Source of the DNA: a virus
Strand: one strand, 5' to 3'
DNA length: 56,240 nucleotides
IMG/VR virus record: IMGVR_UViG_3300004258_000002
Span: 1-56,240 of that record
The notes under the pieces are model-generated. The model saw only the letters and a program-made list of their open reading frames with translations, had not been told where the DNA came from and made no database searches. The stretch's first letter is position 1, and every line of letters starts with the position of its first letter. This document shows, piece by piece, positions 6,381-46,873 of the stretch. The translations under genes were made by a program, and so were the position numbers.

Positions 6381-6420
6381 GGAAAACGCCAAAAATCATT
6401 AATCCAAATCCAATTAACCT
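6381..6420 (+). promoter_or_regulatory. Late-type promoter 1 (GGAAAAC box + TAACCT -10)
   Basis: GGAAAAC at 6381-6387, preceded by TACTC, lies 27 nt before the hexamer TAACCT (6415-6420). No -35 hexamer is visible. Predicted +1 is near 6427, 43 nt before the TTG start of the secreted-protein gene. It is one of ten sites with identical spacing. Confidence 0.65.
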
Positions 6421-6469
6421 ATCCGCTCATTGTAAAAAAAATGAATTAGTTAATTTTAGGAGACATATC

Positions 6470-6775
6470 TTGAAGAAAATACCTTATCTTGTTGCACTCA
6501 TGATTGCGTTTTTTGTTAGCTTGGCTGCTCCAGTAGCCGCTATGGCTGATACCGAAACCGGCTGGGTGGCGCAACATCAAAGTAATGAGGTTTCGGCCAT
6601 TTACGCTGAGCCGGTTATCTTGCATGCAAATCGAAGCGGTATCACAGATACTGTTTTGGATTTTTATGCTGTATTGCCTAACGATAGAGGCTATTCTCGA
6701 CCGAGTTCAGATCAGGTTATGGGTTATAACGGCAAGGCTGTTGTGGCTGGTTACAAAGATCGACCGGGTTGGTAA
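6470..6775 (+). CDS. Small secreted protein, TTG start
   Basis: 101 residues. The TTG at 6470 is chosen because TTAGGAGA lies about seven bases upstream and the protein then begins KKIPYLVALMIAFF. That is a clear Sec signal peptide ending APVAAMAD near residue 25. The mature part of about 75 residues (ETGWVAQHQSNEVS, then FYAVLPNDRGYSRPSSDQ) has no family I recognise. It is monocistronic, between a late-type promoter and a strong terminator. That suggests a late product exported to the periplasm, perhaps a moron or an adsorption or lysis modifier. Confidence 0.7.
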   Translation: MKKIPYLVALMIAFFVSLAAPVAAMADTETGWVAQHQSNEVSAIYAEPVILHANRSGITDTVLDFYAVLPNDRGYSRPSSDQVMGYNGKAVVAGYKDRPGW

Positions 6776-6794
6776 ATGTAGTTTTGACCAACAC

Positions 6795-6833
6795 AAAAAG
6801 CCCCTTGCATGAAGAATGTTAAGGGGCTTTTTT
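6795..6833 (+). terminator. Strong Rho-independent terminator
   Basis: AAAAAGCCCCTT (6795-6806) pairs with AAGGGGCTTTTTT (6821-6833) over a 14-base loop and runs into a T tract. It isolates the secreted-protein gene from the head operon. Confidence 0.9.
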
Positions 6834-6849
6834 ATTGCCCGGCGCATTC

Positions 6850-6889
6850 GGAAAACCGCAAATAAATAGGCAATTTACCCGCCTATCAT
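6850..6889 (+). promoter_or_regulatory. Late-type promoter 2 (GGAAAAC box + TATCAT -10), head module
   Basis: GGAAAAC at 6850-6856, within CATTCGGAAAACC, lies 27 nt before TATCAT (6884-6889). Predicted +1 is near 6896, 24 nt before the ATG of the protease/scaffold gene. A strong terminator ends just upstream. Confidence 0.7.
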
Positions 6890-6919
6890 TGCCCTGACAG
6901 TTTTTAATAGGGTAATGCC

Positions 6920-7786
6920 ATGCCAAAGTCAATCGTACAGCCACCGCTGATAACCTACAACCTGAATGACCGCGGCCGTAAGCATCGTGGAAAGGACAGA
7001 AATTTCAATATCAAGGCTATTTGTGACGCGATAAATAGTCCTGCCTGTCAGGAGCGTGTCAAGACTCGCGCTATGCTGGGCTACTACGGGCATTTACCAA
7101 GGCGATTAGCCGGACTGGAGCCGGTTGAAAGCTTGGTCAATTCTGGAAAGTACAATGAAATAGAACCGGCCATCGTAACGACAAGCCTTGAAGCGTTTCC
7201 GGATGGAACAATCAGGCATCAAACTGAATTCCTTGATTCTTTTCCAGGCAGAAAAGCCGCTCGAATGTTTGCCAATAAGGTCGGCGGATTCAGTTCGGCC
7301 ATTGATAAAAATAAGCCTGAAATGTTTGGTTTTGACTATGTTTTGGACCCGAACTACTCCACTAACCGTGGATTCACGCTGGATTCAGCGGGCGTTACCT
7401 TTGATGACGCATCCGGGGAAGAGTTAGCGCTTGATCAGGTTATCGAAATTGTTCAGAGTGAGGAGCAAGAGTCTTTGCTTTCAATAATCGAGCAAAAAAA
7501 CGCCCAAATCGAGCAAATGGCGCAGGCACTTGATAGCGCAAACGCCGAAAATGAAGAACTGCTTTCGATACTGGCATCCAAGAACACCAACGCCGTTCTC
7601 GATAGCGCGTCTATAGCGCCAATAGCTGTGTCTTTGGATAGCATTGACCGTATCAAAAAAGACACCGAATTCTTCAGACAGACAGCGAAATTGCCTGGCT
7701 TTGTAGCGCCGTTATCCGGCGACCAAAAACAGGCCGAAAAAGAAACTAACGACCTGTTTGGTCGGATGAGTCAGCGCAATGTTTGA
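6920..7786 (+). CDS. Probable prohead maturation protease fused to a scaffold segment
   Basis: 288 residues. The N-terminal 130 residues show a phage-protease layout: LGYYGHLPRR with candidate catalytic His58, TIRHQTEFLDSFPG, and VGGFSSAIDK with candidate Ser125 or Ser126. Residues about 170-220 are a Glu/Gln-rich coiled coil, as in scaffold domains. LDSA occurs at 154-157, 204-207 and 227-230, with LDSI at 239, and could be autocleavage sites. Such proteins build the prohead core and then cleave capsid and core proteins. It is the first gene of the head operon. Protease assignment is by motif layout only. Confidence 0.55.
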   Translation: MPKSIVQPPLITYNLNDRGRKHRGKDRNFNIKAICDAINSPACQERVKTRAMLGYYGHLPRRLAGLEPVESLVNSGKYNEIEPAIVTTSLEAFPDGTIRHQTEFLDSFPGRKAARMFANKVGGFSSAIDKNKPEMFGFDYVLDPNYSTNRGFTLDSAGVTFDDASGEELALDQVIEIVQSEEQESLLSIIEQKNAQIEQMAQALDSANAENEELLSILASKNTNAVLDSASIAPIAVSLDSIDRIKKDTEFFRQTAKLPGFVAPLSGDQKQAEKETNDLFGRMSQRNV

Positions 7787-8507
7787 GGCGGTTAAGGTTG
7801 GCTTTGGTGGCTACATGGGGGCATTTTATACGTCCATTTCGTCAACAACAATGAAGTCGCTGCATGAGTACACAGCGCGTGGACTTGCAAAGAGTATCGT
7901 TTGGGCGCCATCCAGAATGATTGACCAGGCCGAAGATATGCTGTCTTTATGGCAGCGTAACGATACCGATAGCAGCGACACTCATCCAGCCAAGTTGCCG
8001 GTGGTTATTGTAGCCGTTGCCAGGGATTACACGCCAACTGGCAGGGATTTTACGCGGCAGATTTCTGACTCCACACACGTCATTATCCCAGGCGATACCA
8101 AAGAGCGTCATTTTGGCTTACGGACTATTGCCGGGGACATTCGCGCGCAAGTAGCCATATTCGCAGCCGACGAGCCGACAGCGCACTCTCTTGCATCCCA
8201 GTTTTGCCTATTCCTTGATGCTATGCCGAATCGGCGCTTTCATGCCGATTATGCTTTTGCCGGTGTAACGACCGGGTGGCCGGTGCAGATCGAGTCTCCC
8301 GATAGTCCAGTAGCATCCGTCCAAACCGGGTTAAAAAACGTAGTGATTATGGTTGTCGACTTAACTTTAAAGGCCTCAATCCCGCTATTCGATGCGCCTA
8401 AAGTTGGCGACCCTTATAACGACGGCAAAGGAACTCCAGGAACCGATGACCCGGCCGGTTATCAACTGGTTGTCCAGGTTGATGTGACCGATACGGAGAT
8501 TCAATGA
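7779..8507 (+). CDS. Hypothetical neck/tail-completion protein
   Basis: 242 residues, overlapping the previous gene by eight bases. The middle reads like a beta-rich virion protein (HVIIPGDTKERHFGLRTIAG, FCLFLDAMPNRRFHADYAF). The C-terminus is Gly/Asp-rich and ends in a strand (YQLVVQVDVTDTEIQ). Size and position between protease and capsid fit a tail terminator or sheath-stabiliser protein of the head-tail joint. No specific family could be confirmed, so this role is inferred from position. Confidence 0.5.
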   Translation: MFEAVKVGFGGYMGAFYTSISSTTMKSLHEYTARGLAKSIVWAPSRMIDQAEDMLSLWQRNDTDSSDTHPAKLPVVIVAVARDYTPTGRDFTRQISDSTHVIIPGDTKERHFGLRTIAGDIRAQVAIFAADEPTAHSLASQFCLFLDAMPNRRFHADYAFAGVTTGWPVQIESPDSPVASVQTGLKNVVIMVVDLTLKASIPLFDAPKVGDPYNDGKGTPGTDDPAGYQLVVQVDVTDTEIQ

Positions 8508-8719
8508 TGGTTTTAACGCTAATTGATTTTTCGTTGCGGTACTTCGTGATTGGTTTGGTAACCCTGCTTGTCTTGATTCAGATCGCTAAAAAGGATGATT
8601 ACGACTATCAAAGCATGTCTGAAAATCTTGGTCGATTTGTTATTTTTGGGATACTTGGGTGGCCTTATGTGGCGGTTGTGTGGGTTTTCTCGTGGTCAAT
8701 CTGGCTCAAGAAATTATGA
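8504..8719 (+). CDS. Small membrane protein with two predicted spans
   Basis: 71 residues with hydrophobic helices at about 5-25 (YFVIGLVTLLVLIQIA) and 45-66 (FVIFGILGWPYVAVVWVF), separated by a charged KKDDYDYQ loop. The start overlaps the previous stop and the stop overlaps the next ATG. It is embedded in the head operon. No family is recognised; a holin-like or entry-related role cannot be excluded. Confidence 0.55.
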   Translation: MMVLTLIDFSLRYFVIGLVTLLVLIQIAKKDDYDYQSMSENLGRFVIFGILGWPYVAVVWVFSWSIWLKKL

Positions 8720-10003: not shown

Positions 10004-10005
10004 AT

Positions 10006-11614: not shown

Positions 11615-11654
11615 GGAAAACCTCACAAAAAGGCAAATTTTTAGAACTCAGAAT
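11615..11654 (+). promoter_or_regulatory. Late-type promoter 3 (GGAAAAC box + CAGAAT -10), capsid
   Basis: GGAAAAC at 11615-11621 within CACTCGGAAAACC lies 27 nt before CAGAAT (11649-11654). Predicted +1 is at about 11661, the first base of a 7-bp hairpin in the capsid leader. Confidence 0.7.
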
Positions 11655-11660: not shown

Positions 11661-11679
11661 ATGCCGTTGAAGACGGCAT
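11661..11679 (+). promoter_or_regulatory. 5'-terminal hairpin of the capsid mRNA leader
   Basis: ATGCCGT (11661-11667) pairs perfectly with ACGGCAT (11673-11679) over a TGAAG loop. It begins at the predicted transcription start, so the capsid transcript would open with a stem-loop. Such a structure typically protects an mRNA 5' end. The T-poor tail that follows argues against a terminator. Confidence 0.55.
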
Positions 11680-11706
11680 TTGTTTAACTTCTTGGGACAT
11701 AAAAAA

Positions 11707-13410
11707 ATGCCAACTTCTATCCGGCGCTCGCAGCGCATCGTAAACAGCGCCACGGCTATCGGCGCGGCTCAATTCTTTGATAGTTTGAAAGACAATAAAA
11801 TTGCAACATTTGATTCCGCTAATGACGCTTCATTGGCTGTATTCGACTCGGCGGCGGCCAATGAGCTTGTTTCGGCTACGGATACGAATGTGCCGGAAAA
11901 CCTGCAAATGGTTTTCGACGAAATCGGCGCTGAAAAAACAGCCGATGTTGTTAAGGCGATTCTTTGCGGGGCAAACGAATACGAAAGCAGACATGGCGTA
12001 TCGGTCCCAGCTGACGTACTGAATTATGCGTTTAGCTTGGCGGCCGGAACAACCGATCAAGCCCGTGCGGTGATGGCCCTCGACTCGGCCAACAGCTTGC
12101 ATGGCGACAACTTATCGATGCAACCCAATCGCGCAGTGATCGCTGTTTATGCAGCCTTAATGGAAGCGATTCCTTTTGCGCATTATCTGCCGGTGGATAT
12201 TGGCTCCAATGAAGCAAAGTTGGGCATTGTTACGCACCAAGCTGGCGGCCATTTCGGTATGTATGCGGCTAACGGCGGCATGGACGGCATCTCTTCTGGC
12301 GATCCGTACATCACGTCTTCGCGTATCCATGCCACGACCAATAGTTCCGGTGCTCATACCGGACAATTAACTTCCGTTCAAACCGACCGCGACACTTGCG
12401 CCGCAGTCAGTGGCGATGTGGTTGCTGTTAAGTTGCTGCGAGGCCGTACTCAGGTTTACGTCAATGGCCGTATCGTTGCCCGCGAGGTCAGTTCGGCTGG
12501 CTCTGGCTTATCGACCGTTAGCGGTTCCGTGGTTATCTCCGGCACAACCTATCAAATCGGCGGAACAGTAAACACCGATACGGGCGCCATTGCACTGACC
12601 TCTACGCCTGCGCTTGGCGACAGCGTACCGGTGCATGTTGAAGGCTTCCTCGATTACGACCGCCAACCCTCGTTGACACCAACTATCGTAACCAACGCGG
12701 AAATGTTCTCCATTTTTGCCAAACCTTGGCAGGTGGCTACACAAATCGGCATGTCGAGCAGAACGCAAATGGCGAACGAGCTTGGTTTGGATGCGCATTG
12801 CGAAAGCTTGCTGACTATTCAGTCCCAGTTCGCGAACGAGCGTCATTACGAGGTGCTGGATAAAGCGCTGCGCCTTGCTACTTACAGCGGCAATACCGCT
12901 ACTTTCGACTTTGCCTGGTCAACCCAAAGCGCGCAAAAAACGCGTGCCGATGTGTTGCAGGATCTCCAGTCTCACTTGGGCGTCGTGTCTCAACAAATGG
13001 CAATTGACACCATGTCTTACGGCGTTACACACCTCTACGTCGGTAAGTATCTCGGCGCAATGATGTTGGGATTGCCTACAACCATCTGGCAGCCGTCCGG
13101 TGTGCGTCATCGCCCAAGCATTTACCGCTTAGGCCGCTTGTTTGGTCTGTACGACGTTTACTACACGCCAAAAATCATCACCGAATCCAGCTCAGCCGGT
13201 CAAATCCTGTGTATCGGTCAAGCGCCTGACGTTGCTCGCAACCCGTTTGTCTTGGGTGATGCGGTTCCACCAACACTGGTTGTATTGGGTGTTGGCATGG
13301 ACCTGAAACAAGGTAACGGCTTCTACGGTCGTAACTTTACTGAAACCAATCCGCACGGACCTTCTTCAATGGGTTGCGCACTGATTAATGTCACCAACAT
13401 GGGTCTTTAA
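11707..13410 (+). CDS. Major capsid protein
   Basis: 567 residues from the ATG at 11707 (GGGA nine bases upstream); an upstream TTG in frame is less likely. The first 140 residues are poorly structured and carry FDSL (24-27), FDSA (35-38), FDSA (46-49) and LDSA (125-128). The HK97-fold-like body then begins at NRAVIAVYAALMEAIPFAHY. This suggests an N-terminal delta region removed by the maturation protease. Beta-rich insertions (near 240-330) and the C-terminal GFYGRNFTETNPHGPSSMG are conserved in appearance. It is located after its own promoter and before sheath genes, and is the most probable major capsid protein of the window. Confidence 0.82.
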   Translation: MPTSIRRSQRIVNSATAIGAAQFFDSLKDNKIATFDSANDASLAVFDSAAANELVSATDTNVPENLQMVFDEIGAEKTADVVKAILCGANEYESRHGVSVPADVLNYAFSLAAGTTDQARAVMALDSANSLHGDNLSMQPNRAVIAVYAALMEAIPFAHYLPVDIGSNEAKLGIVTHQAGGHFGMYAANGGMDGISSGDPYITSSRIHATTNSSGAHTGQLTSVQTDRDTCAAVSGDVVAVKLLRGRTQVYVNGRIVAREVSSAGSGLSTVSGSVVISGTTYQIGGTVNTDTGAIALTSTPALGDSVPVHVEGFLDYDRQPSLTPTIVTNAEMFSIFAKPWQVATQIGMSSRTQMANELGLDAHCESLLTIQSQFANERHYEVLDKALRLATYSGNTATFDFAWSTQSAQKTRADVLQDLQSHLGVVSQQMAIDTMSYGVTHLYVGKYLGAMMLGLPTTIWQPSGVRHRPSIYRLGRLFGLYDVYYTPKIITESSSAGQILCIGQAPDVARNPFVLGDAVPPTLVVLGVGMDLKQGNGFYGRNFTETNPHGPSSMGCALINVTNMGL

Positions 13411-18818: not shown

Positions 18819-19063
18819 ATATGCCAAGTGATGAATGTAGAATTGCAAAACTTGAACAGCGCATGGATGGTTTGTGCCGTGAACGCAATGAAGATAAAGC
18901 CGAAACCAAAGATCTGATCGATAAAATATTCGCCAAGCTTGATGCGATTCTCGATACACAATCAAAACAAAAAGGATTCTGGTCTGGAGTGGCTTTTATC
19001 CTATCTGCGATAGCAGGATCATTCGGCATTATTATATATTTTGTAACGGGGAAGTCGGCATGA
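18815..19063 (+). CDS. XhlA-like holin accessory protein
   Basis: 82 residues: an N-terminal amphipathic charged helix (CRIAKLEQRMDGLCRERNED) and a C-terminal membrane span (GVAFILSAIAGSFGIIIYFV). This matches haemolysin XhlA-type proteins that work with holins. Its start overlaps the Rz stop as ATGA and its stop overlaps the endolysin start, so the cassette is translationally coupled. Confidence 0.65.
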   Translation: MNMPSDECRIAKLEQRMDGLCRERNEDKAETKDLIDKIFAKLDAILDTQSKQKGFWSGVAFILSAIAGSFGIIIYFVTGKSA

Positions 19064-19473
19064 TAAACAGCAGAAACATTAATGATTTAACGACAAAGGC
19101 TGCCGACTTGTGTTACTTGTTTATCGCTAAATGCGCCAAGCAGGGAATTGACGTTATCGTTACCAGCACCTATCGCGACGCCGATTCTCAAAATGCTTTG
19201 TACGCTCAAGGACGCACAAAGCCAGGGCCTAAAGTAACAAATGCTAAAGCTGGAGAATCCTTTCATAACTACCGTGTTGCTTTTGACTTTTGCCCAATTG
19301 TCAACGGCAAGGCAGCCTGGAACGATACCATGTTGTTTGAGCGTTGCGGTGAGATAGCCGAATCAATCGGCCTGGAGTGGGCTGGACGCTGGAAGTCATT
19401 TAAAGAGCTGGCGCATTGTCAAATGAGCGGCTACACGCTTGCCGAATTAAAGGCAGGAAAGGCGGTTGTTTAA
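19060..19473 (+). CDS. Endolysin, M15 (VanY-type) peptidase
   Basis: 137 residues, full length for a single-domain endolysin. Motifs in order: SIYR-like STYRDADSQNALYAQG, AGESFHNYRVAFDF supplying the zinc-binding His and Asp, and LAHCQ near the end for the second His. Such enzymes are zinc L-alanyl-D-glutamate or D,D-peptidases that cut peptidoglycan cross-bridges. No signal peptide is present, so release depends on the holin. Located between the XhlA-like gene and a DUF6527-type gene. Confidence 0.85.
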   Translation: MINSRNINDLTTKAADLCYLFIAKCAKQGIDVIVTSTYRDADSQNALYAQGRTKPGPKVTNAKAGESFHNYRVAFDFCPIVNGKAAWNDTMLFERCGEIAESIGLEWAGRWKSFKELAHCQMSGYTLAELKAGKAVV

Positions 19474-19949: not shown

Positions 19950-19989
19950 GGAAAACCCCACCAAAACCAAAAAATTCACATAATAAAGT
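19950..19989 (+). promoter_or_regulatory. Late-type promoter 4 (GGAAAAC box + TAAAGT -10), tail tube
   Basis: GGAAAAC at 19950-19956 within CACTCGGAAAACC lies 27 nt before TAAAGT (19984-19989). A CATAAT at 19979-19984 is an alternative hexamer. Predicted +1 is near 19996, 26 nt before the tube start. Confidence 0.6.
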
Positions 19990-25955: not shown

Positions 25956-26104
25956 TGCCCATGTAGCCCTGCATTACCGGTTCCTATGTTGGCTTTCCGA
26001 AAAGCAGCGTAAGCCAGGCGCAGCTTCACTATTACACGCTGGCGATGCGTGAAGAAGATCCGGAATGGAAGCCTGCCCACTTGCCCAGGAAAACCGGCCA
26101 ATAA
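25955..26104 (+). pseudogene. Small ORF interrupted by an amber at codon 4
   Basis: A start codon overlaps the previous stop as TAATG, but the frame reads Met-Pro-Met then TAG (25964-25966). After it, 45 uninterrupted codons give a protein-like sequence (CITGSYVGFPKSSVSQAQ, REEDPEWKPAHLPRK) to a TAA at 26104. No usable start codon exists in the open part before an internal Met. Its end overlaps the polyvalent-gene promoter. It is either a broken gene, a sequencing error, or a read-through product; I do not recognise the family. Confidence 0.4.
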
Positions 26105-26127
26105 TTCCACTAAGTCATGGCGATAAT
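26088..26127 (+). promoter_or_regulatory. Late-type promoter 5 (GGAAAAC box + GATAAT -10), polyvalent protein
   Basis: GGAAAAC at 26088-26094 within CCCAGGAAAACC lies 27 nt before GATAAT (26122-26127). The standard +1 would be 26134, which is the A of the start codon, so the mRNA may be leaderless. Confidence 0.65.
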
Positions 26128-26133
26128 ACCGTC

Positions 26134-28971
26134 ATGACTAAAAATATAATCAACGACTTCATTAAGATCGAAAACGCCGCGCATGACGGCGCTTTCGGTG
26201 ACAATCCGCGAGCAATCCCCACCGATGCTCAGTCCGTAGCGGGAAATTATAAACTTGGCCGGGTTACCGCTTACGGGCTACCTATCGCCATCGAACAACC
26301 ACGCAATTCATATCGTACCGGCATAGACCAGAAGACCGGCAAGCGCTGGACAAACCGAATGGCGGCGCATTATGGCTACTTTTCCGGCACCAAAGGCGCA
26401 GACGGTGACGGAGTAGACTGCTTTATCGGTTTCTATCCGCAATCGGAGTACGTTTACATCATCAATCAGTTTGTTGGTGGGCGTTTCGATGAGCACAAGG
26501 TTTGTCTTGCGTTTCCTGATGAACAATCCGCAATAAACGCATACCTGAATAGTTACGACAAAGGCTGGAAAGGTTTGCACTCAATTATTACAGCATCCAT
26601 CACCCAATTTAAGTGGTGGCTAAAAAACGGCAACATGAAGAACCCAATTGCACTCAATCATTTACCCTTTGAAGGACTTGAAACCATGAGACAACAAGTA
26701 GCCTGGGACAGCACTGAAAACCCAAAAGGCATGACCTTGGATAAGGTGCTGTACGAAATAAAGCGCGCCGATGGCGGCAATAATTTGATATTCGACGCAA
26801 TCTGTATGCGGGATATTTTGGATGATGCTGACAGCGTAATTACGTTTGATGCCCTGGTTACGCCTTACGCACAACTTGAGCGAAAGATGCAGGTACTAAA
26901 AAACATAATGGATCGTTCTGGTGGTGCAATCAAGACAGCGGCGCTACAGATCAGTGACCCATTCAAGCAAAGCGGAGTAGCGCAAGTGGCGGCGGTATTT
27001 GAGCTATCGGACGGGCAAACTGTATCGATATTTTTCCATAACCCGGATGTGGACCCGCGCAAGATCCAGCAAGGCGACGAATTGATCAGCTGGAAGTGGC
27101 TGCTCAATAAAAAGGACATCACAATTGTGGTTGCCCCAGAAAAAGGCGTTGACTTGAACATCATGAATGTTGCCCAGCGCATCATGAAGCTGGCGGAGAA
27201 AAACAGCGCGGCATTTATCCGTGCGAACGGTAAGCGGGCAGAAAAAATGCAGGCTATTGAGGATATAAAGGTTGAAATTGTTGGTCTTGAGGCTGAATTA
27301 AAGACAGTTCTACATGAACTTGAAGTCGCCAAGGTTGAGGCCGAGGATGTGGCGGTTGTTGACCCCGTTGTTGATCCACAGTCCGTTGAAGGTGATGACG
27401 CAGACCCAGTAATAACGCCTGAATCTGAATTAACTCCTGCCCCTGAGATTACTCCTGACCCAGCGGCCGAAACAGAAGCGCTAAAACAAGCAACCTTACA
27501 AGCTCTGGTTGATAATTTTGGCTGGAAAAATCAGTCAACCGTTGGCGGCCCGTTATTTTGGGTGACCAAAGAAATTGGCGGCGGACACAAGGGCGGAATG
27601 GTTAACCCTGATGGAATTCGCCGGGTAAGCGCCAAGTTTGAGGAATCTAGCATGATTGCCATGCACGGCGACAATGTTGTGGCTCGGTCATGGTTTGATG
27701 TTAGCAAAACCCCTGAAGAAAACGCAGATGAACTCAACCGGGTAGTTAATTCGATTGATCCCAATTATGTTAAGCCTGATGAAAGCGAGGTTGTTGACCC
27801 TAAGCCGGAACTAGAATTAACGCCTGTGCCAGAAATTACACCTGATCCTGAAGTAATTCCAGAACCAGAAACAATAATTCCAACTGAAGAGCAAACCAAT
27901 GAGCAAGAAAACGAGCAAGCAGAAATTACGCCGGAAACAGAAACGGGCGGAGCGGAAGGCGATTTAGTTTCGACCAAACCATTTGATGATTATGTGTCGG
28001 ATGCCAATGGCGATTTATATGATGCAGCAAAAAATTATTTCAAGTCAGAATTACAGAATAAGGTTGTAAGAACAGTTATTGGTGATGTTTATATTATTGG
28101 ATCAACCTTTACCGAAATGAAGCGTGGATTAAAACGCGATGAGATTAAGGCTAATTTATTTTCGTTTATTGAGCCTATCTTGACGAATGGATCTTATAAA
28201 GGAAAAGAGGAGCTAAATAAACTACGCAATGATAGTTTTATAGCATTTCACTTTTTTGAATTGGATAATATTAAGATAGGTGAGTATTTAGTCAATGCGG
28301 GTGTTACCGTTGCTCAGCGAGTAAGCGGAGAGCTTGAGTTTGATTTATCTGCCTATGGGTTAGGCCATAGTAATGAAGTAAGGTGGCAAAAAAGAAAAGG
28401 GGGTAGCCCGCTACTCCGGTCAAGAGCCGAAGACGAATTACCCCCCATAGAGTCAGCAGAGCCAGCTCTTGATTCAAGTTTAGATCAAGAAAGCGAATCA
28501 ATCAATTTAATCATCTTAAAAGTAACGGATTTAGATGGTAATGAGCTTGTAGAGTTGGAGGATGATGTTAATGAGCATGAGCAAATCGACGAACCTGAAA
28601 CAGAAAACGAACCCATACCGGTTACCGCCGGTAGTGACGAAACTATTACTCCTGCGGGCGAAAAGTCCGACGAAATGGATAGCCAAGTTAAAGAACCGAT
28701 CAACGAAGCCCAAGCGGTGGAAGATCTGGCACCGGCCGTAAGTGAAGCGGCAATAGAGCCACAAGTTAACCCAATAAAAGCGGGATTTGAGGCGGAGCTT
28801 GAGGCGCTAAAGCTTGAAACCGACATTGAGACATACGATAAGCGACTGGATGAGATTTATGAGCGCATTGAAGCTGCCGGGTTAGCTGAAGAAATGGATG
28901 CTAAACTGCATGAAACGGCTGACGTACTGACTGAGTTACTGATGGAGGCTGAGAAGAATTTCCAGGAATAG
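26134..28971 (+). CDS. Polyvalent protein: pyrophosphatase-like and DarA-like domains
   Basis: 945 residues from the ATG at 26134. Residues about 25-165 are the InPase-type polyvalent domain (AGNYKLGRVTAYGLPIAIEQ, SGTKGADGDGVDCFIGFY with spaced Asp, FDEHKVCLAF). Residues about 205-400 resemble the DarA N-domain found in the preceding small gene. Acidic Pro/Glu/Thr linkers separate later segments (about 405-460 and 555-615), and the C-terminus is a charged coiled coil. Such multi-domain proteins are packaged with DNA and injected to counter host defence. Contains ALDSS near residue 783 as a weak match to the candidate cleavage motif. Confidence 0.75.
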   Translation: MTKNIINDFIKIENAAHDGAFGDNPRAIPTDAQSVAGNYKLGRVTAYGLPIAIEQPRNSYRTGIDQKTGKRWTNRMAAHYGYFSGTKGADGDGVDCFIGFYPQSEYVYIINQFVGGRFDEHKVCLAFPDEQSAINAYLNSYDKGWKGLHSIITASITQFKWWLKNGNMKNPIALNHLPFEGLETMRQQVAWDSTENPKGMTLDKVLYEIKRADGGNNLIFDAICMRDILDDADSVITFDALVTPYAQLERKMQVLKNIMDRSGGAIKTAALQISDPFKQSGVAQVAAVFELSDGQTVSIFFHNPDVDPRKIQQGDELISWKWLLNKKDITIVVAPEKGVDLNIMNVAQRIMKLAEKNSAAFIRANGKRAEKMQAIEDIKVEIVGLEAELKTVLHELEVAKVEAEDVAVVDPVVDPQSVEGDDADPVITPESELTPAPEITPDPAAETEALKQATLQALVDNFGWKNQSTVGGPLFWVTKEIGGGHKGGMVNPDGIRRVSAKFEESSMIAMHGDNVVARSWFDVSKTPEENADELNRVVNSIDPNYVKPDESEVVDPKPELELTPVPEITPDPEVIPEPETIIPTEEQTNEQENEQAEITPETETGGAEGDLVSTKPFDDYVSDANGDLYDAAKNYFKSELQNKVVRTVIGDVYIIGSTFTEMKRGLKRDEIKANLFSFIEPILTNGSYKGKEELNKLRNDSFIAFHFFELDNIKIGEYLVNAGVTVAQRVSGELEFDLSAYGLGHSNEVRWQKRKGGSPLLRSRAEDELPPIESAEPALDSSLDQESESINLIILKVTDLDGNELVELEDDVNEHEQIDEPETENEPIPVTAGSDETITPAGEKSDEMDSQVKEPINEAQAVEDLAPAVSEAAIEPQVNPIKAGFEAELEALKLETDIETYDKRLDEIYERIEAAGLAEEMDAKLHETADVLTELLMEAEKNFQE

Positions 28972-29063: not shown

Positions 29064-29103
29064 GGAAAAGCGGGCGTTTCCATGCTCCGCAGCGCCCTAA
29101 GAT
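29064..29103 (+). promoter_or_regulatory. Late-type promoter 6 (GGAAAAG variant + TAAGAT -10), DarB-like gene
   Basis: GGAAAAG at 29064-29070 lies 27 nt before TAAGAT (29098-29103). It is a variant box, but the spacing and the conserved A and T of the hexamer are kept. Predicted +1 near 29110, just after the terminator. Confidence 0.5.
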
Positions 29104-29136: not shown

Positions 29137-31854
29137 ATGCTATCGTTTTCAGAAAAAAGAACCTCCCAGCGCATTATCGTTGAGCAAAACAAAATCCTTT
29201 CTGGTTCTCCATTATTTACAGCTAAACGCAACGCCCAAAAGGTCAAGCTTGAGGCTATGGCTAAGTTGGGGATGGTTGCAAAAACTGTTGCAGGGATACA
29301 GCTTGAGCCAAGCGATGATGGTGCTTTTTATGAAATAAAAAATGCAACACCAGGGCGAGAAGATCAGTTTATTAATAAGTCACCGCTTTGGGAGCGCACC
29401 GGGCCCAGTGCGTCGTCAGAATCCGAAGATCAGACCTTCTTACTCCCAGAAGCCAAAGACGGCTTAAATAAAAGTGTAGACCAAAATTCAAATATCAGCA
29501 ACTCAAACTACGGGCTGCAAACCAGCGGCATTAAGACCAGAGAAAAAATAAACGACCAAGTTAAAGCCGTTGCCAATCAAATCCAAGCTGGGAAAGACCC
29601 GGCAACATTGACTGCTGACGAGGTGGCGCTGCTTAAGCAGTATTCCGGAAAGGGCGGCTTAACCATCAATTCGCAGTTCGAGTATTTTACACCAACCCCG
29701 GTTGCTGAGGGTACTTGGGATGCACTTAAAATTAACGGGTTTGAAAACGGGAATGTTCTTGAGCCGAGTACCGGTGCAGGCGTGTTCCTGGCTACCAAGC
29801 CGGCCGGCGTTATTGCCACCGGTACCGAGATTGACCCGACAAGCGCCACAGTCGCCCAAGTGCTTAACCCGACCGATCAAGTTTCAAACCAGTCTTTTGA
29901 AAAGCTGGCGGTCAATGCCCCGGATAACAGCTTCGATGCAGTCATCGGCAACGTTCCGTTCGGTAACGCGCGCGGTCCGTCAGCGCACGATGATCCGGCC
30001 TATAAATCAGAAAAGCTGATTGAGCGCTATTTTGTCAACCGGGTTATTGATAAGGTTCGTCCGGGCGGCTTGATTGCGTTGGTTGTGCCGGTCAATATCA
30101 TCCGGGCCAAAGGCAAGGCTTGGGAAAAGTTTCGCATTGCAATCAGCAAAAAAGCCGAGTTTTTGGGCGCCCATAAGCTTCCTTCGAAAACTTTCGCCAA
30201 GCAAGGCACCGATACCGTTGTTGATGTTCTGGTTATGCGTAAGCACAGCGCCGATTTCCTGAGCACTATTAACGACCTTCCATTCGATACATTGATAGCG
30301 GCCAATGTGGTATGGCCGGAATTCATCGAAGGCCGATACTGGCAAGGCGAAGGCAAGCGCTTTATTCATGGTGAATTTGTACCCAAAGACCCGACCAAGT
30401 TCCGCGACACGGACAAGGTTATTGCCGGCGAGAATTTTACTGACGAGTCATTAAAGCGCGCGCTGGCTGTTAAGTTTTCCAGTCGCATTGACTGGACCAT
30501 GTTGGATGCCGCCGAGCCCATTGTCCGTAATTATACCGAAGGCGACCGCCGGGAAATGAACGGCCTTGATTATGAACTGAAAGACGGCGTATGGATGAAG
30601 GTCGCTTATACAGACAATACGGTTGCGCTGGATTCGGCCATCTATGGCGTTGAATCTATGACCGCATTGCAGTCAATCATGCAATCGGAATCGGGCATTT
30701 TGTCGCTTGGCTGGGGGCATATTGAGTCAATAGCAGAAACATTCCCGAACATGGTCCCGCAAAGCGTTAAAGATGCGCTCAAGTTCTCCCGCCTACAGCC
30801 GGATGATGTGCAGTGGAGGGCATTCCGAGGCGCTGTCATCGGAGCAAAGATTGAGGCCTATACCAATGGCCGAACCGACGATCCAGGCGAATTGGCTGAA
30901 TTAAAAGAGCTGATTCTGCATGAAGTTATCCAGTATGGCCCCCCGAAAGATATTAAGGGTTTGGTACTGGCCGGAAACGACTCTAAGCGCCTGGGCATGT
31001 TTATCAACTCAGTGGACGAGTCCGGTAATTTCTCCGCTTTGATCGAAGCTGGCTCCATCCAGCAAGAAACCGACAGCTTTAACTCTAAAGACGTGCTGTC
31101 GATTATCGATTACTTGTTCGAGCAGAACCAATACCCGATTGAACTTGGGGTCGTACTATCACTTTACGACGGCGACATGCTCATAGAGGACCTTGGCGAC
31201 ATAGTTACCAAAATACCTGGACTGGCCGTTTCTCCGGATGGATTCATTTACCCATTCGACCAATACTGTTCTGGGCTGATTTATCCAAAACTCAACGCGA
31301 TGCGCGATGCGATGGTGCAGGAAAAGGACAAGCGCATTATTGAGCAGTACAAAAAGCAAATTGAAAGCATTGATACTAAGTGCCGCAAAACGCCGACCGA
31401 AAATATTACGTTTGGGATGCGGCAAAAATGGTTCAACCATACTGCTTACGCGCTGGAGTTCTTGAAAGCCAACGGCTATAACCGAGCCATCGACTATAAC
31501 GAAGAGCGCGGCGAATTCGTATCCAACAGCACCGGTGGCATTGCATCACAAATCGTCAATTATCTGAACGATAAGCCGGTAATGGGCGGCGTCAAGGTAT
31601 CTGAGTACAAAGACGGTATTCGTGCGCTGGAAGAGCAATTTGACGCCTTCATGAAGTCGCACGCCGATAGCGAAGACTTGACCAGCGAATATAATCGTAA
31701 ATTTAACGGTTATGTCGAGTTCGATTACAGTTCAAGTGATTTGAAGCTGAAAAATATCGATGATAGATTGGTTCCGCACAGCTATCAAAACGAGGCGATA
31801 CGACGATTATCACGTGAAGGGATCGGTATTTTAGGGTTCGATGTCGGCCTGTGA
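29137..31854 (+). CDS. DarB-like protein, N-terminal methylase half ending at in-frame TGA
   Basis: About 905 residues from the ATG at 29137, which has TCAGGA eight bases upstream; the ATG at 29128 overlaps that site. An N6-adenine methyltransferase domain is visible: GNVLEPSTGAGVFLATKPAG (motif I), TGTEID, and FDAVIGNVPFGNARG (motif IV of NPPY type). A VALDSAIY sequence near residue 498 matches the candidate protease site. The frame then runs to FDVGL and stops at TGA in the middle of a Walker A motif, with the helicase continuing in the same frame. DarB-type methylase-helicases are injected to block type I restriction. Confidence 0.72.
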   Translation: MLSFSEKRTSQRIIVEQNKILSGSPLFTAKRNAQKVKLEAMAKLGMVAKTVAGIQLEPSDDGAFYEIKNATPGREDQFINKSPLWERTGPSASSESEDQTFLLPEAKDGLNKSVDQNSNISNSNYGLQTSGIKTREKINDQVKAVANQIQAGKDPATLTADEVALLKQYSGKGGLTINSQFEYFTPTPVAEGTWDALKINGFENGNVLEPSTGAGVFLATKPAGVIATGTEIDPTSATVAQVLNPTDQVSNQSFEKLAVNAPDNSFDAVIGNVPFGNARGPSAHDDPAYKSEKLIERYFVNRVIDKVRPGGLIALVVPVNIIRAKGKAWEKFRIAISKKAEFLGAHKLPSKTFAKQGTDTVVDVLVMRKHSADFLSTINDLPFDTLIAANVVWPEFIEGRYWQGEGKRFIHGEFVPKDPTKFRDTDKVIAGENFTDESLKRALAVKFSSRIDWTMLDAAEPIVRNYTEGDRREMNGLDYELKDGVWMKVAYTDNTVALDSAIYGVESMTALQSIMQSESGILSLGWGHIESIAETFPNMVPQSVKDALKFSRLQPDDVQWRAFRGAVIGAKIEAYTNGRTDDPGELAELKELILHEVIQYGPPKDIKGLVLAGNDSKRLGMFINSVDESGNFSALIEAGSIQQETDSFNSKDVLSIIDYLFEQNQYPIELGVVLSLYDGDMLIEDLGDIVTKIPGLAVSPDGFIYPFDQYCSGLIYPKLNAMRDAMVQEKDKRIIEQYKKQIESIDTKCRKTPTENITFGMRQKWFNHTAYALEFLKANGYNRAIDYNEERGEFVSNSTGGIASQIVNYLNDKPVMGGVKVSEYKDGIRALEEQFDAFMKSHADSEDLTSEYNRKFNGYVEFDYSSSDLKLKNIDDRLVPHSYQNEAIRRLSREGIGILGFDVGL
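31852..31854 (+). other. In-frame TGA replacing the Walker A glycine
   Basis: The frame reads GFDVGL, TGA, KTLSSFALQAY. The family motif is G-x-G-K-T, so a GGA-to-TGA change would explain it. No other stop interrupts the joined frame from 29137 to 35637. Confidence 0.8.
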
Positions 31855-31896
31855 AAAACCCTAAGTTCGTTTGCGCTGCAAGCTTACAACGAACAA

Positions 31897-34800
31897 ATGG
31901 ACCGGTCTAAGCGGACTTGTATCGTGGTTCCTGATGCGGTGCTGGCGAATTGGTATCATGAACACCGGGCGTTTTATAAAGACACATCGAAGATGCTGTT
32001 TGTTGGCATGTCGCCTAAAACAAATAAAGACGGCGGCATTCAACGCGAGCCAATACTGGACGAGCAGGGCAATCCAAAGCTGGTCAATGATAAGGAAATC
32101 TATCAAGACATCCTGACTAAGGACAACAAGGACATTATCTGGGATAAGATGCACAAAATCCCGCAGTCTAACTTTTCCTTGGTGGTGATGTCGCATTCTC
32201 GGTTCGGCATGATTCCGGTAAAGGGCGACACCAAGCGTAAATACGCAGACCTGATGATGTCGCGTGAGTTATTAAGTGCCGGCGAGGCCGACAAGCTGAT
32301 GAGCGCGAATCCAGGGAAAGTATCGTATGCAGATGCGCAAAATAATGACCGGTTAGGGCAGAAATACTCGGACGAAGGCACGACCAAGCAGGATGCTTAC
32401 CCATATTTTGAAGATATGGGTTTTGATACGGTTATCGTGGATGAGGCGCATTTTTTTAAAAATTCATTTTCTCCGGGTAAAGAATCGCAACGCATAGCGT
32501 ACCTGCCAACACCGAACCCATCACAACGCGCTATCGATATGTCGCTGAAAATGTCCCATATCCGGGAGATTAATGGCGGTAGGGGAGTAATTTTACTTTC
32601 AGCCACTCCTGTTACAAACAGTCCTTTGGAGATTTACAACATGCTGTCTTTGTTGATCCCAATGGAAGAGTTTGAGGCGTTTGGGGTGTACACGCCTGAT
32701 GATTTCGTACGCGTGTTCGGCGATATTCAGCACATAGAAAAAATGAAGGTATCCGGGGAAATCGGCAATGTTGATGCAATGGTTGGCTTCCAGAACCTTG
32801 ACGGTTTGCGTTCGCTGTTCCACAAATATTCCATTATCAAGAATGCCGACGATGTGAAACTGCCATTGCCGGATTCAGAAGAAGTTCAGGCAACCGTGGA
32901 ATTGTCGGATGAGCAACAGGAAATTTATGTAGGGTTAAGAGCTGAAGCCAAAGACGCCACATCAGGCGATCAGAAGGTACGCGAAGCGGCAAGGCCGCTT
33001 TTTTCCATCATCCGGGACATGGATAGGACTACGACAGACCTTGATATGTTCCACAAGCGCATTACCTTTATTTTCAAATCAGAGTTTAAAGATGCTGTTA
33101 ATTCAGCGCTGGTTAAGATGCCAAAAACCGTGCAGCGCAAAGAATACGACTCCGATCAGGAAAAGGATGTTGTTATCACAGTACCGTTTGAATATGAAGT
33201 CACCGAGAATAATGGCAAGATTATTGTGATGATGACCGATGCCGGCGAAGAGGATATGGTTAATGCTATCCAGAAAGTCGGTATTCCAGAAGATGAGGTA
33301 GCGCACCCAATTACGCCAAAGTATGCCGAGTTGCTTAAAAATCTGGCTCATGAAATGGAATTGGGCGGCAAGCAGATCATTTTTATCGAGGAAAAAACCC
33401 AGCACAAAAAGTTGGCTCGAATCCTGGTCCATTTTCTGCCGATTACCTTAGCGAACATTGGCATTATCAATGCAACCGATGCCGCCGGCGAAAAGTTGCA
33501 GCGTATTTCCGACGATTATAATGCTGGAAAAATCAAGATTGTGATTGCCAACAAAAAAGCCGAGGTCGGAGTAAACCTGCAAAAAGGTACGTCAGCGATC
33601 CACCATTTAACTTTCCCTTGGGTACCGGCCAGTATGCAGCAGCGCAATGGCCGAGGCATCAGGCAAGGCAATACCGTCGAAACAGTGCGTATTTACCATT
33701 ATATCGGCAAGGGTTCGTTTGACCTATTCAGGCTAAACCTGATCAACCAAAAAGGCAGCTGGATTAACGATATTTTGCGCGGTACCGAGTCCAATATGGA
33801 AAGCAAGGGCGACGGGCATTTGTCGGCCGAAGATGTGATGGTGCTGCTGTCGGATAATCCAGAAGAAGCGCGCGCGAGAATGGAAGAGTCCAAGGCCAAG
33901 CGCGAGAAGGCTAAAAAGGGAAAAGCCGATAAAGCGATGGTGATTAACTTGAACCAGCTTATCGAAGCGCGGCGCAAGTTATCCTTGCTGTCTGGATGGA
34001 AAGCTGACGAAAAAACCAAGATTGAAGACGAAATCAGCAAGCTGAATGCCCGCATCGAGGCCCACCAAGACGACGGCACCGAAGATGCCAAAAACAAACT
34101 GATCGACTTAAAACGCAAGCGTACGATTCAGGCGAATAAACTATCAGGGCTGGATGCCAAATACCAAGCTATCGAAGAATCGGCGGCGTCTTCCGTGAAG
34201 CAGAAGACAGTATTCCTAAAGGCTAAGGCTGCTTCCGGTGAACTGCCGTTTGATACCGGTGCCATTGATAACCCGGATTCCGTGTTGATTACTCGGGATG
34301 GCCGGGTAATACGTGCCGGCATGGTGTTCGATTTCACCACGGAAAAATACGGCGGAACGGCCATTACCGGGTTGCGCCTGGTTTCGGCGATTGATTCAAA
34401 AACTCAAGCGGTATCGTTGCTGTCCAAGGGCTCAACCTATGTGCAAAATATCGGCCTGGGCGAGCTTTACCGTTACGCTATGAAGACGGTGGCGATGACA
34501 ACCGAAGAATGGGATCTAATGTCTAAATTGTCGCGGGAATTATCGCTACAGGAAGTCATTGACCTGGGCCGCGATACCGTTGATAAATTCAAGTCCGAAA
34601 TCAAGCTGAAGTACGCTGAATATTACCTTGTGGATGCCGGTGACGGCGAAGTGCTGATAGTAAAAAACAACAGCTCTTATGAGACACTGGACAAAAAGGC
34701 GTTCACTTGGCCGGAACTGAAAAACGAGGCGCAAAAATGTAGCGTTGCCAAGTATTACCTGGGCAATACGCTGTATGGTGTTGATGATTTTATGGCGTTA

Positions 34801-36099: not shown

Positions 36100-36139
36100 G
36101 GAAAACCAACCAAAAAAACCACAACTGACGCTCCATAAT
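36100..36139 (+). promoter_or_regulatory. Late-type promoter 7 (GGAAAAC box + CATAAT -10), portal
   Basis: GGAAAAC at 36100-36106 within CCACCGGAAAACC lies 27 nt before CATAAT (36134-36139). Predicted +1 near 36146, 23 nt before the portal ATG. The -10 lies inside the left arm of a perfect 12-bp dyad. Confidence 0.7.
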
Positions 36140-44245: not shown

Positions 44246-44256
44246 TACTGCTATTT

Positions 44257-44292
44257 TGCCGTGCCATTTGAAAATAATGGCGCGGCATTTTT
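44257..44292 (+). terminator. Rho-independent terminator
   Basis: A 12-bp near-perfect stem (44257-44268 with 44276-44287, one mismatch; outer pairs TGCCG/CGGCA) followed by TTTTT at 44288-44292. It can end the small-ORF transcript. Confidence 0.75.
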
Positions 44293-44347
44293 ATTTCCGC
44301 CTTTGTGCGGCTGCTACATAATACTGAAAAATAACGAAAGTTGTCAA

Positions 44348-44641
44348 TTACTCGGATTTTTTAACAAGTTCAACTGATATTAATTTTTTAAGTGTTCCGC
44401 CATATTCATTTTTTTCCACCATTGCAGTGGCTTTGCAAACATCGCCGCCATGACATTTATCAAATATTTTTTTTGACTTTGGGTCATTAGAAATAAAGGT
44501 TATGTCATTGCCACTTTCGTCAGTAATTGATGAGTCTAACGTACCGTATTGCAATACTCCGGTGACAGTTACTTTCTCATCTTTTGCTTGAGCAGAAAAC
44601 GCAATAAATAATCCTAACGCCATAACAACAACTTTTTTCAT
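44348..44641 (-). CDS. Small periplasmic protein with signal peptide
   Basis: 97 residues from the ATG at 44641 with GGAG six bases upstream on the minus strand; a TTG 12 bases earlier is less likely. Signal peptide MKKVVVMALGLFIAFSAQA, cleavage near AQA-KD. The mature part (VTVTGVLQYGTLDSSITDE, IFDKCHGGDVCKATAMVE) is beta-rich with two cysteines that could form a disulfide, and it suggests a small OB-type fold. Host-like moron; no family is recognised. An attC-like element lies just upstream. Confidence 0.65.
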   Translation of the reverse strand: MKKVVVMALGLFIAFSAQAKDEKVTVTGVLQYGTLDSSITDESGNDITFISNDPKSKKIFDKCHGGDVCKATAMVEKNEYGGTLKKLISVELVKKSE

Positions 44642-44661
44642 ACCATTCTCCAAATTTAATC

Positions 44662-44711
44662 GCTAACAAAAATCATAAGCCGCGCATGGTCGCCGAAGCT
44701 GGGCGTTATGT
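44662..44711. repeat. Possible integron attC-like element
   Basis: TAACAA at 44664 and GGGCGTTATG at 44701-44710 bracket about 35 bases containing AAGCCG. This resembles short attC sites of gene cassettes, with TAAC and GTTA as outer pairs. The internal symmetry is poor, so the call is tentative. Confidence 0.25.
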
Positions 44712-44736
44712 CAATCGTGTTAGGGTGCATAAAGTC

Positions 44737-44776
44737 GGAAAATCAGAGAAAAGCTTTATAAATCCATGAATATAAT
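44737..44776 (+). promoter_or_regulatory. Late-type promoter 8 (GGAAAAT variant + TATAAT -10), antisense
   Basis: GGAAAAT at 44737-44743, within AGTCGGAAAAT, lies 27 nt before a perfect TATAAT (44771-44776). Predicted +1 is near 44783 on the plus strand, so transcription would run antisense through the membrane-protein gene at 44816-45130 and into the gene at 45135. Confidence 0.6.
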
Positions 44777-44815
44777 AAAGCCAACTATCGGGGCGTGTCG
44801 CTTGCTCGGTCGTAC

Positions 44816-45130
44816 TTAGTTTGTTTGCAGTAAAGACATGACATTGCAGGCCAAGCCAATAATTTGCATGAAAAAACCGGCTGCTAATAACTTGGTCCCG
44901 GTTTTTTCTGCCTCATTGACTTGGTTATGCATACCATGAATCTGAATATTACGAATATTCTCCCCCCTTGCTCTGGCGGCATTGACTTGAAAATTAATAT
45001 CCAGCGCCCGGACAGCCAAAGAGAGCGAGCCAAGAATTTTTGTAACCCTCCACGATACAAGCAAGGTTCCAATAAACATGAAAACAGCACTCAGTATTTT
45101 TAATAGATTTACATCAATTTCGAGGATCAT
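44816..45130 (-). CDS. Membrane protein with two predicted spans
   Basis: 104 residues on the minus strand. Hydrophobic helices at about 8-30 (LLKILSAVFMFIGTLLVSW) and 80-102 (LLAAGFFMQIIGLACNVMSL) flank a polar stretch (ARARGENIRNIQIHGMHNQ). It starts five bases from the divergent plus-strand gene at 45135, so the two compete for upstream space. Its antisense strand carries a late-type promoter. Function unknown; host-like accessory gene. Confidence 0.6.
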   Translation of the reverse strand: MILEIDVNLLKILSAVFMFIGTLLVSWRVTKILGSLSLAVRALDINFQVNAARARGENIRNIQIHGMHNQVNEAEKTGTKLLAAGFFMQIIGLACNVMSLLQTN

Positions 45131-45134
45131 AAAA

Positions 45135-45350
45135 ATGTGGCCATTTAAAAAAAGTAAAAAATCAGAACCTGTAAAAGATTTATATTCGTTTACTCCTCAA
45201 GACGATATTACCGCTCTTGAATGTGCTGATTTCTTAAGTGATTCGACTAGGTTCAGAATTATAACCGAAGACTATGTAAGCAATCTTCCCGACTCGATGA
45301 AAAGGCATTTCCAAAAAATATCTGCATCCGATTGCGAGTCCAAGCAATAG
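45135..45350 (+). CDS. Hypothetical small protein (MWPFKK start)
   Basis: 71 residues from the ATG at 45135 with GAGG ten bases upstream. A longer frame from 45078 would overlap the divergent gene. Basic N-terminus (MWPFKKSKKSEPVKDL), then an acidic domain (YSFTPQDDITALECADFL). No family is recognised. It could be transcribed from the antisense late promoter at 44737. Confidence 0.5.
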   Translation: MWPFKKSKKSEPVKDLYSFTPQDDITALECADFLSDSTRFRIITEDYVSNLPDSMKRHFQKISASDCESKQ

Positions 45351-45378
45351 CTCGGGATAAGCCGCTTTTTTCGCCATA

Positions 45379-45418
45379 GGAAAACGGTGTAAATACAACT
45401 AAATTTAGGCAATAACAT
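45379..45418 (+). promoter_or_regulatory. Late-type promoter 9 (GGAAAAC box + TAACAT -10), regulator operon
   Basis: GGAAAAC at 45379-45385 within CATAGGAAAAC lies 27 nt before TAACAT (45413-45418). Predicted +1 near 45425, 24 nt before the GTG start at 45449. Confidence 0.6.
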
Positions 45419-45448
45419 AATGACTCTATAATTTTTACGGAGTCAATT

Positions 45449-46075
45449 GTGAGCAATTTAATCAAAAGCAACGCGGTCGCAAGACTTCTTTCTGTGACCA
45501 TGCATACTATCCGCGACATGCGGCGTGACGGACTTCTTCCGCTGCCTGTTGTTGTTGGAAAAAGCGAGTTATGGGTTGATGCTGAGATCGAATCCTGGCT
45601 AAAGTGCAAGTTAGCCGAAAGAGAGGGGTGCAACATGGATGTTGTTAACGACCTGCCTTGGCCTCCTGTTTTGTTGAGTGGCAGACAGGTAGCAAGTATT
45701 TTTAAGGTAATGGATGATACCGTCTTGGTCCTTGCCAAGGCCGGTAAATTACCAGGCGCAATTATCATCGCAAAGAAAAATTCTTACCGATGGGTTAAGT
45801 CTGAAGTTTATGACCTCATTAAAAAGCTTCTTTTAGAGAGAGGTTGCGCTAATGAAATACCTTCCGAGCCTGTTTTGATTGGCGCAAATGAAGTCGCTAT
45901 AAAATTAGGTTTCACAAATTCCGGCTATATATCAGCGCTCAGCAAGAAAGGGGTACTGCCCAAGCCAATCACGATAGGAGGCAAGCTACTTTTTTGGGTT
46001 GAGTCTGAGATTCAGGAATATGCTGACAGCAAAATAGCGGAGCGTGACGCGGCTGTTGATGGGGGTGCGGAATGA
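45449..46075 (+). CDS. Triple AlpA/excisionase-type HTH protein
   Basis: 208 residues from a GTG with ACGGAG six bases upstream. Three similar winged-helix units follow one another: residues about 6-59 (SNAVARLLSVTMHTIRDM), 75-132 (SGRQVASIFKVMDDTVLVLA) and 143-201 (GANEVAIKLGFTNSGYISAL). Each ends in a W-V-x-S/A-E-I/V helix. AlpA-like proteins are usually single-domain activators or excisionases, so three tandem copies are unusual. Under a late-type promoter and coupled to the BRO gene, it may be a regulator. Confidence 0.65.
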   Translation: MSNLIKSNAVARLLSVTMHTIRDMRRDGLLPLPVVVGKSELWVDAEIESWLKCKLAEREGCNMDVVNDLPWPPVLLSGRQVASIFKVMDDTVLVLAKAGKLPGAIIIAKKNSYRWVKSEVYDLIKKLLLERGCANEIPSEPVLIGANEVAIKLGFTNSGYISALSKKGVLPKPITIGGKLLFWVESEIQEYADSKIAERDAAVDGGAE

Positions 46076-46827
46076 GCCAGTTAATTCCATTCGAGTTTGA
46101 AAGTTCGTCTGTTCGCATAATTACCAATGATAATGGCGATCCATTATTTGTGGCGAAGGATGTTTCTGAAGCGCTGGGTTACGCTTGGTCCGGTGCCGCT
46201 ACGATCAGGCATATACCGAATGAATGGAAGGGGGTTGATTCGGTTCCAACCCCCTCCGGAAACCAAGAAATGTCAGTACTTACAGAGCAAGGCTTGTACT
46301 TTTTCCTTGGTAGAAGTGACAAGCCAAAAGCGCTCCCAATGCAAAAATGGATTGCAGGCGATGTTTTGCCATCAATCCGCAAAACCGGCAAATACGAACT
46401 AAATCCAGCTGATCAACAATACAAATTGCCCGGCAATTATATCGAAGCTCTTGAGGCTCTACTTGAGTCTGAAAAGCAAAGAGCCCTGGATGCGCCAAAA
46501 GTCCGACTAGCCACACTCATTTCAGAGTCATCAAATTCTCGCTGCATTAGGGTTTGGGTTAAAGCCATGAAAAACGAGAATAACCTATGTGTTGGTGAGC
46601 GCGACGTTTTCAAATATTTGATCGATAAAAAGTACATCTTCAAGCCGAAAGGTGAAAAAGGCTATCTCCCATATTCCCGCCACGAATCAACAGGAACGGG
46701 TTTTTTCGCGGTTGTTGTCGATGAAATTAACGGAAAGCCAAGGCGAATGCTCAAGATAACAGGAAAAGGGGTTTTGAACTTAACCGCCAAAGTGATTGAG
46801 CATTTCAATGAGGATATAGCTGCTTAG
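46072..46827 (+). CDS. BRO-N antirepressor with KilAC-type C-terminal domain
   Basis: 251 residues overlapping the AlpA-like gene by ATGA. N-terminal BRO-N: VRIITNDNGDPLFVAKDVSE, ALGYAW, MSVLTEQGLYFFLGRS. C-terminal phage antirepressor domain (NNLCVGERDVFKYLIDK, KYIFKPKGEKGYLPYSRHES). It is a second antirepressor besides the gene at 5326. Ends exactly where promoter 10 begins. Confidence 0.8.
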   Translation: MSQLIPFEFESSSVRIITNDNGDPLFVAKDVSEALGYAWSGAATIRHIPNEWKGVDSVPTPSGNQEMSVLTEQGLYFFLGRSDKPKALPMQKWIAGDVLPSIRKTGKYELNPADQQYKLPGNYIEALEALLESEKQRALDAPKVRLATLISESSNSRCIRVWVKAMKNENNLCVGERDVFKYLIDKKYIFKPKGEKGYLPYSRHESTGTGFFAVVVDEINGKPRRMLKITGKGVLNLTAKVIEHFNEDIAA

Positions 46828-46833
46828 CTACTC

Positions 46834-46873
46834 GGAAAACCCGACAAAGCAACAGAATCATGCCTCATATACT
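46834..46873 (+). promoter_or_regulatory. Late-type promoter 10 (GGAAAAC box + TATACT -10), baseplate
   Basis: GGAAAAC at 46834-46840 within CTCGGAAAACC lies 27 nt before TATACT (46868-46873). The standard +1 would be 46880, exactly the A of the baseplate start codon, implying a leaderless or near-leaderless mRNA. Confidence 0.7.

Follow-up and report, generated by a model that had tools for sequence, protein, structure and literature searches.

GGAAAAC boxes and -10-like hexamers in the window

The window, that is, the whole stretch of DNA analysed here, is an IMG/VR virus record of 56,240 bases (G000), and a longer record (G1; 73,380 bases) is identical to it. Judged by its genes, it represents part of the genome of a temperate myophage related to P1: its terminases are PacA- and PacB-like, its major capsid protein (11680-13410) shares 23% identity with gp23 of P1, and PHROG searches revealed homologs of PmgB, PmgG, Ulx, DarB, portal, sheath, tube and baseplate proteins. 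Comparison of 20 kilobases of the window with known phages by megablast gave no match. Relatives were found in viral contigs and bacterial genomes, among them those of Nitrosomonas, Pigmentiphaga, Pusillimonas, Halomonas, Ectothiorhodospira and other bacteria, and eight relatives were examined over their full length. The subject of this study is a two-part motif, a GGAAAAC box followed after 27 nucleotides (nt; N27) by a -10-like hexamer, which is found at ten sites of the window and is predicted to form the late promoters of the phage:

6381-6420, plus strand: predicted promoter before a small, possibly exported open reading frame (ORF); GGAAAAC at 6381-6387, hexamer TAACCT at 6415-6420; leave-one-out position weight matrix score 20.2.
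6850-6889, plus strand: predicted promoter of gene 6920 (tail-fibre-like); hexamer TATCAT at 6884-6889; orthologous promoters in relatives G2, G3, G5 and G6.
11615-11654, plus strand: predicted promoter of the major capsid gene 11680; hexamer CAGAAT at 11649-11654; kept in most relatives.
19950-19989, plus strand: predicted promoter of the tail tube gene 20022; hexamer TAAAGT at 19984-19989; orthologous promoters in G2, G3 and G6, and in G7 with the box GGAAAGT.
26088-26127, plus strand: predicted promoter of gene 26134 (virion-associated protein, 945 amino acids); hexamer GATAAT at 26122-26127; start codon at +1.
29064-29103, plus strand: predicted promoter, with the variant box GGAAAAG, of the DarB-like antirestriction gene 29128; hexamer TAAGAT at 29098-29103.
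36100-36139, plus strand: predicted promoter of the portal gene 36169; hexamer CATAAT at 36134-36139; orthologous promoters in G2, G3 and G4.
44737-44776, plus strand: unproven candidate promoter with the variant box GGAAAAT; hexamer TATAAT at 44771-44776; not conserved, no clear target gene.
45379-45418, plus strand: predicted promoter of gene 45449, which encodes an excisionase-like DNA-binding protein, and of the antirepressor gene 46072; hexamer TAACAT at 45413-45418.
46834-46873, plus strand: predicted promoter of the baseplate operon beginning at 46880; hexamer TATACT at 46868-46873; start codon at +1.

The positions given in a first-pass annotation, with the sixth hexamer base 33 nt past the end of the box, were re-checked and are correct, and the motif is real. 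Exact GGAAAAC occurs 16 times on the two strands of the window versus 9.75 expected, and 8 of the 16 boxes have a good -10-like hexamer at exactly N27, where the background is 0.025 per position (binomial p 1.6e-9). When all 7-mers were combined with spacings of 13-42, this was the top over-represented two-part word. Among the box permutations (n=105), GGAAAAC scored 8 and the runner-up 2 for N27 plus hexamer, and at each other spacing the GGAAAAC box is followed by 0-2 hexamers. When the whole stretch was scored, as the first-pass annotation had advised, with a matrix built from the ten sites, ten plus-strand positions and no minus-strand position exceeded 14 bits; the leave-one-out range was 11 to 25, and 29064 and 44737 ranked lowest. 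The coding copies of GGAAAAC do lack the hexamer, as had been claimed, and the same is true of copies that had been overlooked, one at 2352 (plus strand) and two on the minus strand. In the best sites the box is embedded in a longer word, ACTC-GGAAAAC-C. It had also been said that the sites have an A-rich zone in place of a -35 hexamer. The lack of a -35 stands, given that TTGACA matches in that zone are below random (2.5 and 2.4 of 6 vs 2.86), but the A-rich spacer belongs to the AT-richer genome and not to the motif.

Conservation of the sites and predicted transcript starts

The promoter recurs at the orthologs of genes 6920, 11680, 20022, 26134, 36169 and 46880, despite a diverged spacer. 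By the criterion of GGAAA plus xAxxxT, with the hexamer 34 or 35 nt beyond GG, it precedes the capsid gene at 67 of 70 non-redundant loci; the opposite strand gives 6/70, and random windows give 5%. The 368 GGAAAAC boxes of the relatives have a -10 at N27 in 31 cases and at N28 in 93, as against about 5 at each other spacing, and control words give no comparable peak at N27-N28. The variant GGAAAAA[C/T] peaks at N26-27; taken together, the two peaks indicate that the fixed distance is that from GG to the hexamer, 34-35 nt. The invariant spacing originally proposed is thus true of the window phage and not of its relatives, where it is 27 or 28. Relatives that seemed to be devoid of the motif in a scan at fixed N27 were found on inspection to have N28 or box variants. 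Loosening the pattern to GGAAANN gave no useful signal in AT-rich phages; the box is lineage-specific.

At promoters 26088 and 46834 (26122-26136 and 46868-46882), the start codon lies 6 nt past the hexamer and coincides with the predicted +1. Orthologs of 26134 have the promoter in 27 of 33 relatives, and 22 of these 27 have 5-7 nt between hexamer and start codon; for 46880, the promoter is present in 22 of 24 relatives, and the start codon lies 5-8 nt after the hexamer in 21 of the 22. With both genes pooled, 43 of the 49 promoters have the start codon at 5-8 nt from the hexamer. A +1 that falls on a conserved ATG argues strongly and independently that the hexamer is a genuine -10 element. 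Leaderless late mRNAs are therefore predicted for the virion-associated protein and the baseplate operon, each of them kept in about 20 relatives, while the remaining late genes in the window have leaders of about 20-60 nt. The predicted capsid leader begins with a hairpin:

11661-11679, plus strand: hairpin ATGCCGTTGAAGACGGCAT, at the 5' end of the predicted capsid mRNA leader.

Hairpins of different sequence occur at the matching place in many relatives (mean z -1.2; 47 leaders), and this element is perhaps a 5' stabiliser.

The two variant boxes of the first-pass annotation fare differently. Site 29064 gains support from G5, whose ortholog has a promoter with an exact GGAAAAC, while 44737 remains unproven, being in an unconserved accessory region without a co-directional gene directly downstream. 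The nearby segment 41188-44700 is itself accessory, with a low content of G and C (37-40%), no orthologs in the relatives read, and a gene for an XRE/metalloprotease regulator. Boxes 19950 and 26088 fall within mechanically called ORFs, and the conserved gene starts 20022 and 26134 lie downstream of them. Behind site 45379, the stretch 45449-46075 seems to encode a protein with an excisionase-like HTH domain repeated three times, with the antirepressor next and the GGAAAAC promoter in front. In the DarB-like helicase, a single in-frame TGA interrupts the Walker A motif (GL*KT) at 31852-31900; the G2 ORF is uninterrupted, and the interruption is either a broken gene or a sequencing error.

The XRE protein as candidate activator

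The first-pass annotation named no activator. From co-occurrence and co-variation, a strong candidate can now be proposed, encoded directly upstream of the terminase genes, in the position of lpa in P1:

1635-2684, plus strand: candidate late activator, an XRE helix-turn-helix (HTH) protein of PHROG 7396, a family of unknown function; HTH part from about 2034 (about residue 139).
2688-3524 and 3524-5050, plus strand: PacA-like and PacB-like terminase genes, directly behind the candidate, an order like lpa-pacA-pacB in P1.

The HTH part is 37-44% conserved in G2-G6. The AlphaFold model (mean predicted local distance difference test score 83.5) places two long helices after an HTH domain, and the PDB neighbours of the HTH are C.BclI, SinR, C.AhdI and P22 c2, with weak E-values and good local superposition; the model thus indicates an XRE HTH fold. 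The N-terminal part (1635-2030) is left over from a holin-associated N-acetylmuramidase, as though a neighbouring endolysin gene, now lost, had become fused to the regulator; another endolysin candidate lies at 19060-19473. A cysteine-rich ORF (785-988) was considered as a zinc-finger activator and rejected, as it showed neither a family match nor conservation.

In profile searches, the XRE protein was matched in 11 of 14 viral records, and not in P1. Two of the three records without a match are fragments and the third, G016 (L054), is also without the promoter. Conversely, the capsid promoter is present in 37/37 loci where an XRE homolog was seen. Nearly every long motif-bearing relative tested has such a homolog, usually next to the small terminase.

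Moreover, box and recognition helix change together. In four relatives with capsids 39-43% identical (G7, L092, L086 and L091), the capsid gene is preceded by GGAAAGT + N28 + hexamer; G7 has a GGAAAGT promoter before the tail tube gene too. The XRE proteins of the GGAAAAC clade have the recognition segment GYSNSSKLSKIE, unlike the homologs of G7 and of the phage of L092, which have a common segment of their own (GQKQCSQVSQWE, GQKNPTQVSLWE); GGAAAGT pairs with the helix GQKxx(S/T)QVSxWE (G7, L138). A third pair, GGAACY with TPHKNRMSEIE, comes from Acinetobacter phage ABMM1, in which the capsid is 25% identical and a PHROG 7396 protein lies upstream of a terminase-like gene. This phage was not used in building the hypothesis, and its box was taken from three of its promoters before counting. 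The hexamer follows 34 nt after GG in 16 of 44 GGAACY boxes (p 7e-7), and nine such promoters lie 66-78 nt before annotated genes, e.g. capsid, sheath, tail tube, baseplate and holin. This co-variation also follows phylogeny, and is consequently support, not proof.

Proposed activation of the late genes

It is quite probable, from the sequence comparisons above, that the ten sites include late promoters of a P1-related phage which are class II-activated by the XRE protein bound to the GGAAAAC box. Host RNA polymerase with the housekeeping sigma factor would recognise only the -10 hexamer, and the promoter would be silent alone because it has no -35. The XRE protein, probably dimerised through its long helices, would bind the box at about -46 to -40, beside the missing -35, and would contact sigma region 4 and/or the alpha subunit, thereby recruiting polymerase as lambda cI does at PRM. 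One protein could in this way turn on the capsid, tail tube, portal, virion-internal, antirestriction and baseplate units. We infer binding, activation, timing and polymerase contact; the class II mode is suggested by the box position, the lack of a -35, the constant helical phase and the type of regulator, by analogy with lambda cI, P22 c2 and the C-proteins, and the late timing by gene content. The box lies at or adjoining the -35 position at a fixed distance from the -10, as in class II activator-dependent sigma-70 promoters. The conservation of the promoters, the depletion of -35 matches and the co-inheritance of the regulator agree with the reading in the first-pass annotation of late-type promoters without -35, with a class II box and one regulator, which is supported as far as sequence can support it. 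A single regulator for all structural units would apply to the capsid, tail tube, portal, baseplate and internal-protein genes, but not to the terminase operon, which has no box. That part of the claim is also weakened by sites 45379 and 6381, which precede a DNA-binding/antirepressor pair and a small, possibly exported protein, respectively.

Several points weigh against this activation by the XRE protein. XRE proteins are repressors more often than activators; the XRE homolog of G7 is not adjacent to the terminase; the ABMM1 protein is tied to the family via PHROG 7396 and the HTH part only (profile E 1e-4); and the second dyad half (GTTTC) exists in some sites only, for which reason the perfect dyad GGAAAACnnnnGTTTTCC was rejected as the bound site. 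Co-occurrence inside one clade is partly common descent, and it is formally possible that another conserved gene of the clade is the activator.

It would be unlikely, though worth considering, that the late promoters are real and answer to another activator, either a phage protein or a host SspA-like or Fis-like factor, the XRE gene being merely a syntenic neighbour. P1 late promoters need the host SspA besides Lpa; however, the XRE recognition helix differs along with the box, and among the window proteins conserved in G2-G6 no sequence-specific regulator other than the XRE protein is evident. Repressors are common among phage XRE proteins, and the P1 C1 repressor works at many scattered operators. 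The box could accordingly serve as an operator through which the XRE protein keeps late genes repressed in a lysogen, but a repressor site needs no fixed 34-35 nt distance to the -10, and promoters without a -35 are unlikely to be active unaided; this makes the proposal very improbable. A -35 element of a phage-encoded alternative sigma factor is hardly credible: GGAAC is a typical -35 word of extracytoplasmic function sigma factors, yet 27-28 nt between elements is no sigma spacer, the hexamer retains A2 and T6 of sigma-70 -10 elements, and no sigma factor was matched among the proteins searched. A chance or codon-driven coincidence has next to nothing in its favour, as it is countered by the window statistics, the spacing peak in relatives and the conserved capsid promoter; conservation and spacing statistics already refute a chance origin of the motif.

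P1 has 11 late promoters with a 9-base-pair inverted repeat bound by Lpa (PMC10695390). The system proposed here is like that of P1 and Lpa (gp10) in that its late promoters are scattered and combine a -10 with a phage-specific box but have no -35, in the candidate activator gene directly upstream of the terminase genes, and in the homologous capsid and terminase. Unlike P1, where the 9-base-pair element (GTGACTTTC type) is at -22, the box is here at -46 to -40; GTGACTTTC was not found in the window, P1 has no GGAAAAC promoter, and the regulator is an XRE protein not present in P1. An Lpa homolog was not detectable by tblastn (best E 0.84), and profile comparison of Lpa with the XRE family gave a probability of 0.3%. 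Since the -22 box and Lpa, which define the P1 system, are both lacking, the logic seems P1-like and the switch different. Lambda cI at PRM, P22 c2 and the C-proteins of restriction-modification systems share the XRE/cI DNA-binding fold, a site adjoining or replacing the -35 and the expected polymerase recruitment, and lambda PRM mRNA is leaderless too. Unlike those, the present regulator would be a genome-wide late switch with about 10 promoters, and long helices replace the C-terminal domain of cI. Mu C and P2 Ogr / P4 Delta are phage-encoded activators of late promoters with a -10, a poor -35 and an upstream binding site; they have other folds and other boxes, and PHROG searches of the window proteins gave no homolog of Mu C, Ogr or Delta.

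In the open-licence literature, no description of GGAAAAC promoters or of this late system was found. The candidate activator, the box/helix co-variation, the leaderless starts and the breadth of the system go beyond the first-pass annotation. Our results make it rather likely that a clade-wide late system exists in P1-related phages of diverse proteobacteria, in which a PHROG 7396 XRE protein takes the place of Lpa as a cI-like class II activator of about ten promoters, with a co-evolving box and helix and two leaderless operons. If so, the uncharacterised family PHROG 7396 would gain a function, and P1-related phages would have two unrelated activator/promoter systems for late transcription. 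Late operons and their start sites could be predicted from sequence in dozens of phages and prophages of Nitrosomonas, Xanthomonas, Acinetobacter, Halomonas, Burkholderia, Pigmentiphaga and others, and nature would have provided a set of matched boxes and recognition helices. For structural proteins, late mRNAs that are leaderless across many relatives would be unusual.

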